Shown here one piece after another: positions 13,281 to 29,136 of a DNA stretch of 32,982 nt (its first letter is position 1; each line of letters starts with the position of its first letter). This stretch comes from Bacteroidia bacterium (GTDB taxonomy: Bacteria > Bacteroidota > Bacteroidia > JANWJV01), in the NCBI GenBank assembly GCA_025451785.1, contig JANWJV010000163.1, forward strand, positions 1-32,982. Reading direction: 5' to 3'. The position numbers and the translations under genes were made by a program. The notes under the pieces were generated by a model that saw only the letters and a list, made by a program, of their open reading frames with translations, ran no database searches and had not been told where the DNA came from.

Positions 13281-13294
13281 CTAAAGTACTAAAA
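13281..13294 (-). promoter_or_regulatory. promoter-like element upstream of wzc (TTTTAGTACTTTAG)
   Basis: On the minus strand this 14-base string ends 8 bases before the wzc ATG and contains TACTTTAG, a 7/8 match to TAnnTTTG. The identical 14-mer occurs at 27880-27893 just before the SecD-like lipoprotein gene. If it is a -7 box, the transcript would be nearly leaderless. Confidence 0.35.
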
Positions 13295-27199: not shown

Positions 27200-27265
27200 G
27201 CCAGGTCTTTCGACCTGGCATACCTCCACCCGGCGCCCTGAGCCGCCAGGTCTTCCGACCTGGCG
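27200..27265. repeat. tandem REP-like hairpin pair beside the RAYT gene
   Basis: Two near-identical hairpins, arms GCCAGGTC (27200-27207) with GACCTGGC (27212-27219), and GCCAGGTC (27245-27252) with GACCTGGC (27257-27264), have loops TTTC and TTCC. Each is followed by the shared bases (G/A)TAC. They lie between the tlpA stop and the RAYT stop codon. The spacing and identity suggest a REP/BIME-like unit recognised by the neighbouring transposase, and they may double as a terminator for both convergent genes. Confidence 0.75.
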
Positions 27266-27270
27266 TACAA

Positions 27271-27816
27271 CTAAGAAAATATTTCAGTATAGTGAAGTAT
27301 CGGGATCAGTGGTTGTTTCTCCTTCAGATAAAACCCCGCACTTGAGTGCTTATAATCTTCCGCTTCGGACACCAGGTTCTTTTTGACTGGATTCAAATGG
27401 ATATAATTCATTTTGATCAAAAGGACCCTTTTACTCCTTATTACAACATCATCAAAAGGCCCCATCCATATCTTGAATTTTTGCTTTCTGCTGTCAAACC
27501 TCAGCTTCTCTAGCAACTCTCTTCTTCCCTCATGTTCGATCAACTGCCGCAATTTTACTGCTGTAAACTTCTTGAAATCCCTCATATAATCGGAGAGATG
27601 ATTTTTGCTTTCAAAATAGAGGATAAGATGAATGTGGTTAACCATTAAAACATATGCAATGATCTTGGCGCTATACTTTTGGTTCAGGAACAACAAGGAC
27701 GAGTAAAGGATTTGAAAGTAGCTGTCGTTAACGAATAAATGCATCCAATCATTGCAAGTAGTCGTTATGAAAAAACATGAGTATTCCAGGAGTCTATTTC
27801 TACCACGTGTAGGCAT
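27271..27816 (-). CDS. REP-associated tyrosine transposase (RAYT), Y1/HUH family
   Basis: This 181-residue protein starts at ATG 27816 (MPTRGRNRLLEYSCF); a TTG six codons upstream is possible. The histidine motif of the HUH nucleases is seen as VNHIHLILYF and the catalytic Tyr is in KMNYIHLNPVKKNLV. The YKHSSAGFY end is typical of TnpA_REP (Y1_Tnp) proteins. RAYTs nick and rejoin single-stranded DNA at REP palindromes and are usually domesticated single-copy genes. Two hairpins lie immediately 3' of its stop (27200-27265). It is divergent from the SecD-like lipoprotein gene and convergent with tlpA. Confidence 0.88.
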   Translation of the reverse strand: MPTRGRNRLLEYSCFFITTTCNDWMHLFVNDSYFQILYSSLLFLNQKYSAKIIAYVLMVNHIHLILYFESKNHLSDYMRDFKKFTAVKLRQLIEHEGRRELLEKLRFDSRKQKFKIWMGPFDDVVIRSKRVLLIKMNYIHLNPVKKNLVSEAEDYKHSSAGFYLKEKQPLIPILHYTEIFS

Positions 27817-27879
27817 GATCAAAATTACCTTCAATCATAAAACACTTCTGTTTTTCATCACTGATATTTATCATGCCGT

Positions 27880-27893
27880 TTTAGTACTTTAGC
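27880..27893 (+). promoter_or_regulatory. promoter-like element upstream of the SecD-like gene (TTTTAGTACTTTAG)
   Basis: It is identical to the 14-mer found before wzc (13281-13294) and contains TACTTTAG, a 7/8 match to the -7 consensus. It ends 6 bases before the start codon, a distance like that in wzc. Confidence 0.35.
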
Positions 27894-27899
27894 TAATAT

Positions 27900-29033
27900 A
27901 TGGTCTATCATTTAAGGATAGGTACAGTTTGGTTATTGTTGGTAATATGTTCATTGCCAGGCTGTGACTTTATCAGCAACCTTCGAAACAACGATTCATA
28001 TATTGTTTTGGTTGAGCTTAAAGAGGTAGGCGAACGCGGCAAATTCATTGCTGTACAACAGCGTCGGTTTGAACGTTTGAATCTTTTCTCAGCTTCAATG
28101 GAGACAGAAACCACTTTGATAGTTGGGCGAAGTGACAGTCTACTGAAGTTTACATTCAGCAATGTTTCAGACCGCGATATTCCTTCCATTAAAGCACTCT
28201 TCAATGCCAGAGGCAATCTTGCTTTCTGGGAAACGGCTGAGAACAAGGAATTGTATCCCATTATAGATTCCGCGAATAAACTGCTCTCAAGAAAACTATT
28301 TCCTGAAAGGGCAGCGAAAGAGGAAGATGTTGGCACAATGTCTGGCAGCCGGCCTGACACAGGCAACCTGGCAGGCAAGAGCTTATTGCAACAGCTAGAC
28401 GAAAAAAAGGTAAAGGAGCCAAGACCTGAAAAATTCTCAGAGGAGGATAATCCTCTCATCGGAATTCTTCAGCCAGCGATATACCTGAGCGATGTGCAAC
28501 AATACAGCCTTAGAGACGGTCCTGTGATCGGCTATGCTGATCAAAAAGACACCGATAGAATAATGTCCTACCTGCGGATGCCAGAAATAGCGGCCCTGTT
28601 TCCACATAATGTCTTGTTCTTATGGGGGTTTAGACCTACTCAGAGGTCTGGCAGTACCTTCGAACTTGTCGCAGTCAGAAAGCAAAAAGAACCTGAAGAA
28701 GAATCCTTTAGTGGTGATATTATACATTCGGCAGAAAAATACTTTGACACAGAAAACGGTGGTCGCCCACAGATCAGCATGACCATGACGCCATCTGCAG
28801 CGATCAAATGGAAAAAAATGACCGCATCTAATATTGGCAGGTCCATCGCCATCGTCATAGACGGTAAGGTGATCACCTACCCTACTGTACAAAATGAGAT
28901 CCCAAATGGTCGATCCAGTATAACTGGCGATTTTACAGTGAGTGAAGCCAATCAGTTGGTTAGCCTGTTGCTTGCGGGTCCGCTGCCTTATCATTTTACC
29001 ATCGTTTCGGAGGAGTTTGTTGAGGGTAAATAG
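27900..29033 (+). CDS. lipoprotein homologous to the Bacteroidota SecD periplasmic (P1) domain, without membrane channel
   Basis: This 377-residue protein begins with an uncertain start codon at 27900, right after an in-frame stop, and has a lipoprotein signal VWLLLVICSLPGC with Cys22. Two parts match the SecD/SecDF P1 domain of Bacteroidota: residues 96-130 (ALFNARGNLAFWETAENKEL...), and 205-375, with GPVIGYADQKDTDRIMSYL, FLWGFRP, GRPQISMTMTPSAAIKWKKMT, NIGRSIAIVIDGKVITYPTVQ and GDFTVSEANQLVSLLLAGPLP. In true SecD this region is followed by six transmembrane helices. Here the protein ends instead. No secY or secF lies nearby. It could work with SecDF, or be an independent periplasmic chaperone (inference). 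Confidence 0.82.
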   Translation: MVYHLRIGTVWLLLVICSLPGCDFISNLRNNDSYIVLVELKEVGERGKFIAVQQRRFERLNLFSASMETETTLIVGRSDSLLKFTFSNVSDRDIPSIKALFNARGNLAFWETAENKELYPIIDSANKLLSRKLFPERAAKEEDVGTMSGSRPDTGNLAGKSLLQQLDEKKVKEPRPEKFSEEDNPLIGILQPAIYLSDVQQYSLRDGPVIGYADQKDTDRIMSYLRMPEIAALFPHNVLFLWGFRPTQRSGSTFELVAVRKQKEPEEESFSGDIIHSAEKYFDTENGGRPQISMTMTPSAAIKWKKMTASNIGRSIAIVIDGKVITYPTVQNEIPNGRSSITGDFTVSEANQLVSLLLAGPLPYHFTIVSEEFVEGK

Positions 29034-29054
29034 ACAATGTAGGATCGAATTTCA

Positions 29055-29070
29055 CGGGTGGAAACACCCG
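29055..29070. repeat. GAAA-loop hairpin 1
   Basis: CGGGTG (29055-29060), loop GAAA (29061-29064), CACCCG (29065-29070). It lies about 20 bases after the SecD-like stop codon. A related hairpin is at 29115-29136. Confidence 0.55.
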
Positions 29071-29114
29071 GGAGTACCGTATCTGAAAATTGAAAAAATT
29101 ATTATCTTCGCTCT

Positions 29115-29136
29115 CCCCGGATGGAAACATCCGGGG
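29115..29136. repeat. GAAA-loop hairpin 2 in the yebC leader
   Basis: CCCCGGATG (29115-29123), loop GAAA (29124-29127), CATCCGGGG (29128-29136) form a perfect 9-bp stem with a GNRA-type tetraloop, ending 10 bases before the yebC ATG. Compared with hairpin 1, a G-C pair has become A-T, a compensatory change. Confidence 0.6.

Follow-up and report, generated by a model that had tools for sequence, protein, structure and literature searches.

The window, i.e. the whole stretch of 32,982 nucleotides that was analysed, stems from a genome of the Bacteroidia and contains a gene for a free SecD P1 domain that is predicted to be lipid-anchored. The coordinates of this gene, of the parts of its product and of neighbouring elements are compiled in Table 1. 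An intact yebC gene begins 113 bp 3' of the stop codon of the P1 gene.

Table 1. Position of the P1 gene, the parts of its product and adjacent elements in the window
Feature	Position	Strand	Basis or remark
Free SecD P1 lipoprotein, CDS	27900..29033	+	377 aa; ATG start; frame open throughout; matches to PF22599 and SecDF model
Predicted lipoprotein signal peptide (residues 1-21) and lipidated Cys22 (codon 27963-27965)	27900..27965	+	Pattern and hydropathy
P1 base subdomain (~residues 33-112)	27996..28235	+	Sequence eroded; beta-alpha-beta pattern in AlphaFold2 model
Insert between base and head (~residues 113-267)	28236..28700	+	GPVIGYADQKDT...FLWGF; aligned to Bacteroidota SecDF, common to both
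P1 head subdomain (residues 268-363)	28701..28988	+	PF22599, E=9.9e-25; substrate-binding part in SecD
14-bp promoter-like string TTTTAGTACTTTAG	27879..27892; 13281-13294	+; -	~8 bp before the ATG of the P1 gene and the start of wzc
Y1 (IS200-like/RAYT) transposase ORF	27271-27834	-	

The RAYT that the first-pass annotation had noticed near the P1 gene corresponds to the Y1 transposase ORF. The segment consisting of transposase and P1 gene is flanked on both sides by paired hairpins, which are of two types with two copies each. The type GCCAGGTCTTNCGACCTGGC is located at 27200-27219 and 27245-27264 on the 3' side of the transposase, and the type CCCGGRTGGAAACAYCCGGG at 29053-29072 and 29116-29135 after the P1 gene. 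One further copy per type is found elsewhere in the genome at ≤2 mismatches (C103:1581 and C28:1073). This arrangement is reminiscent of REP elements with their RAYT; the position of transposase and hairpins next to the P1 gene does not imply a link to it. The 14-bp string that had been described as common to the P1 gene and wzc was located at both genes, and these are its only two exact copies within the 3-Mb genome. It looks like a promoter element of the -7 type and might act as such; the pair is a weak sign of a possible shared control of the P1 gene and wzc. Transposase and string are of weak value as context and contribute nothing on the function of the P1 protein; homologues elsewhere lack a conserved neighbourhood.

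The only Pfam match of the ORF is PF22599 (SecDF_P1_head), which covers the head listed in Table 1; SecD_1st gave no match in the Pfam scan. In the NCBIfam SecDF model PRK13024.1-5, residues 93-374 align to profile positions 215-485 of 993 with E=2e-55, which corresponds to P1 only, and the score of 188 compares to a cut-off of 1037 for full-length SecDF. A sequence search of the PDB gave 3aqo, the P1 domain of Thermus thermophilus SecDF in isolated form, as the nearest solved sequence (E=2.8e-15). The window protein is one SecD P1 domain on a predicted lipoprotein.

The periplasmic segments of Bacteroidota SecD quoted in the first-pass annotation all occur in the translation; one refinement concerns the base of the domain. 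Judged by the alignment columns with ≥90% invariance in SecDF, the insert of the window protein has retained 9 of 11 residues and the head 31 of 40, whereas the base is badly eroded (6/34) and does not retain the conserved SecDF sequence RIDxFGVxQPNIQ...GRILVELPG. The corresponding numbers in twelve other free copies are 10-27 for the base, 7-11 for the insert and 27-32 for the head. Despite the erosion of its sequence, the fold of the base is still present in an AlphaFold2 model of the mature chain, which was computed from an alignment of 39 sequences (mean pLDDT 80.4, pTM 0.72). A fold search of the PDB with this model yielded nine matches at E<=0.001, all of them SecDF. The top match is 3aqo_A (E=2.3e-11), and normalisation by the 3aqo P1 chains gives TM-scores of 0.62-0.67. 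Structure prediction is thus in line with the proposed P1 fold.

The absence of a transmembrane channel, which had been deduced at first inspection, agrees with both hydropathy and tblastn. The signal peptide is the sole strongly hydrophobic stretch of 19 residues (Kyte-Doolittle value 1.93 at residue 7); beyond residue 30 no 19-mer exceeds 1.19, and neither channel nor SecF half is present in the window protein. For comparison, the genome's own SecDF fragment possesses 97 windows with a hydropathy above 1.6. A tblastn search of the window with SecDF detected no channel remnant, P1 being the only match at a significant E-value. The true secDF of the genome is located on another contig (C61); it is truncated by the contig start, its channel part is complete and 817 aa are open. 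The P1 domain of this SecDF and the window protein share 53% identity over residues 176-374. Because the two P1 domains are only about 53% identical and lie on different contigs, they belong to distinct genes and not to one split gene.

The predicted signal peptide is MVYHLRIGTVWLLLVICSLPG, with cleavage directly before the Cys (C). The lipobox SLPGC, already recognised in the first reading of the sequence, contains an unusual Pro at position -2, and the same LPGC recurs in one homologue (L104). Surface lipoproteins of Bacteroidota are marked by an acidic export signal around positions +2 to +6 (PMC5080379). The mature N-terminus of the window protein, CDFISNLR, lacks such a signal, and an acidic pair was found in only 1 of 25 lipobox-bearing homologues. 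As nearly all of these proteins are devoid of the surface-export signal, the window protein and its relatives probably face the periplasm, anchored in either the inner or the outer membrane.

In order to find relatives, genomes of Bacteroidia were searched with the window protein or with an alignment of four free copies. The majority of matches are full SecDF proteins of about 1000 aa, and shorter proteins recur among the rest. Some two dozen proteins consisting of a free P1 or P1 head occur in other Bacteroidia genomes, nearly all of which also possess a full SecDF. In one family, 8 of 36 genomes carry a free P1; further copies exist in six additional families, and head-only or degenerate forms in six others. 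Outside these families the close look was limited to genomes with at least two matches, and the tally is therefore a lower bound. An order-level search for kin returned only the genome of the window itself. A hydrophobic stretch plus lipobox is present in 25 of the 29 scored free P1 proteins (that of the window included), compared to 18 of 150 other long ORFs from the same stretches, and two of the four misses resemble near-lipoboxes by eye (ILDSC in L082, LTNCC in L113). All ten homologues scanned with Pfam match P1 domain models only. Homologues with the same lipoprotein architecture thus exist, and the sequences argue that the free lipid-anchored P1 is a real protein type that recurs across Bacteroidia.

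Other versions exist at some loci. Two different free P1 lipoproteins are encoded in tandem on the same strand at L107:2920-4855, and again at L108:1588-3566. At L112:1482-1961, L114:1616-2074 and L113:1778-2263, the SecD P1 head alone makes up small lipoprotein-like proteins (about 150-160 aa). One free copy (L074:3637-4764) has a single in-frame TAG at a Trp conserved in its relatives, and is either a young pseudogene or the result of an assembly error. The possibility of cargo was rejected for phages, where only weak, head-only matches in two unannotated records occurred, and for plasmids, whose annotated examples among the matches listed are secD or secDF genes.

A conserved operon or neighbourhood was not seen among the loci of free P1 homologues compared; most copies lie among unrelated genes. 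In three genomes of the family mentioned above (G099, G410 and G398), secDF follows the free copy directly on the same strand, and in these copies the lipobox is followed by a long N-terminal part that still resembles SecD. Both properties fit the expectation for duplicates of P1 alone. Furthermore, in the region L076:1460-5036 a free P1 lipoprotein adjoins groEL, and secG is close by on the same strand.

Free copies evolve fast and form long branches in trees. For two pairs of free copies other than the window gene, a simple counting method gave dN values of 0.18 and 0.33 and partly saturated dS values of 0.86 and 1.34, and hence dN/dS ratios of ~0.21 and ~0.25; those of the matching secDF pairs are ~0.05 and ~0.09. 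The two tested pairs are under purifying selection that is weaker than that of SecDF. Over insert and head together, the window copy is most similar to its own SecDF (52%), all others reaching 47% or less; several of the remaining free copies, although not all, are likewise nearest to the SecDF of their own lineage. The trees are unstable through their long branches. AU tests reject neither a single clade of all free copies (p 0.31) nor a sister relationship between the window copy and its own SecDF, the log-likelihood of which lies 18.65 above that of the free search (p 0.725). The affinity to SecDF of the same lineage and these tests make a repeated origin of free P1 copies likely, albeit unproven. 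At 44%, the G+C content of the P1 gene is lower than that of six neighbouring genes (50-52%) and of the genome's own secDF (52%). Such a difference could stem from a transfer from a relative of lower G+C or from relaxed codon choice, both of which are possible.

The P1 head of SecDF is thought to grip emerging chains, and the membrane part to pull. According to work on Vibrio and E. coli (PMC11470409, PMC7793623), the cavity that binds the substrate lies in the P1 head of SecD; a movement of this head with the flow of cations has been proposed, and it makes contact with the chaperone PpiD. The window protein is most likely a motor-less, lipid-tethered polypeptide-binding factor of the periplasm. 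The free gene would have arisen from the P1-coding 5' part of secDF, with a lipoprotein signal in place of the first transmembrane helix. The predicted N-terminal lipid would hold the free P1 to the membrane, facing the periplasm, and the head might still bind unfolded stretches of polypeptides that leave the Sec channel or cross the periplasm. A free P1 without the proton-driven channel is unable to pull, so it would grip passively, as a tethered chaperone that holds chains and prevents their backsliding, and may exchange substrates with SecDF.

We give this passive holding function about an even chance. It is favoured by the confinement to P1 in both sequence and fold, by the missing channel and the separate secDF, as well as by the combination of lipobox and P1 in many genomes, at a frequency well above that of the control ORFs. 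The retention of head and insert residues with loss of the base, the dN/dS ratios of the two pairs, the three copies just upstream of secDF, the one beside groEL near secG and the missing acidic surface-export signal point in the same direction, as does, by analogy, the role of the P1 head as the substrate binder of SecD with its PpiD contact. On the other hand, fast evolution and base loss could also signal relaxed constraint, most genomes have no conserved operon with Sec genes, and the G+C content of the gene differs from that of its neighbours.

Alternatively, a free P1 could regulate SecDF by competing for the partners of the head (the SecYEG exit, PpiD/YfgM-like chaperones or BAM) or for substrate, and thereby tune or buffer the motor. 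Homology to that domain of SecD which moves and contacts partners, a full SecDF in nearly all carriers and the three copies immediately upstream of secDF are compatible with such a regulator; it is nevertheless unlikely, though the likeliest of the alternatives, because most copies lie away from secDF and have diverged strongly, base included. A decoy, which the first-pass annotation also considered, is likewise conceivable. Recruitment to an unrelated role in the envelope, in which the P1 fold would persist as a scaffold for binding, e.g., a specific envelope protein or ligand, would fit the patchy occurrence, the divergence, the head-only and tandem versions and the lack of a conserved neighbourhood. 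However, the SecDF-type residues of head and insert are mostly kept, which suggests that the original binding was retained and renders this recruitment rather improbable. We also doubt, slightly more strongly, that the free P1 is a paralogue in slow decay that no longer has a function. Long branches, the in-frame TAG of one homologue, dN/dS ratios above those of secDF and the lost base residues would fit slow decay, but the window gene has 377 intact codons and an intact lipobox, dN/dS is ~0.2 in two pairs of relatives and the architecture recurs. An origin of the P1 gene from decay or breakage of a full secDF, or from faulty assembly, can practically be dismissed: the genome's true secDF does lie at a contig edge with its start cut off, but its fragment overlaps the same P1 region at ~53% identity on a different contig, the frame of the P1 gene is unbroken, no remnants of the lost part are nearby and the yebC gene behind its stop codon is intact.

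We tentatively propose, with somewhat less confidence than in the passive holding function itself, that Bacteroidia have repeatedly detached the substrate-binding P1 of SecDF and turned it into lipid-anchored periplasmic chaperones, which would constitute an undescribed class of accessory factors in Sec export. The domain itself is well known and recognised by Pfam, and annotation may simply call these proteins SecD fragments. The literature search, which was largely confined to open papers, yielded no report on free P1 or SecD-like lipoproteins, and their novelty is provisional. They represent an unstudied set of envelope proteins and a way to probe P1 without the motor, i.e. to ask if gripping by itself promotes export, prevents backsliding or controls the translocon.

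Compared to SecDF and SecD of the RND superfamily, the free P1 corresponds in sequence, fold and domain order (base, Bacteroidota insert, head) to their P1, and the periplasmic location is the expected one. In contrast, it has neither transmembrane channel nor SecF half and hence no proton-driven motion, it carries a predicted lipid anchor in place of TM1, and its base residues are eroded. An extra SecD-type sequence beside the main SecDF is also known from second sets, namely SecDF plus SecD/SecF in Streptomyces coelicolor (PMC4139356) and SecD2/F2 in Vibrio (PMC7793623); these are complete motors, whereas the free P1 keeps P1 alone. PpiD and YfgM (PMC7793623, PMC11470409) are anchored by a transmembrane helix and not by a predicted lipid, and their fold is unrelated as far as known. 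The contact with SecD has been shown for PpiD, and it is by proposal that the free P1 is likened to PpiD and YfgM: like them, it would be tethered and would capture emerging chains independently of ATP and without pulling.
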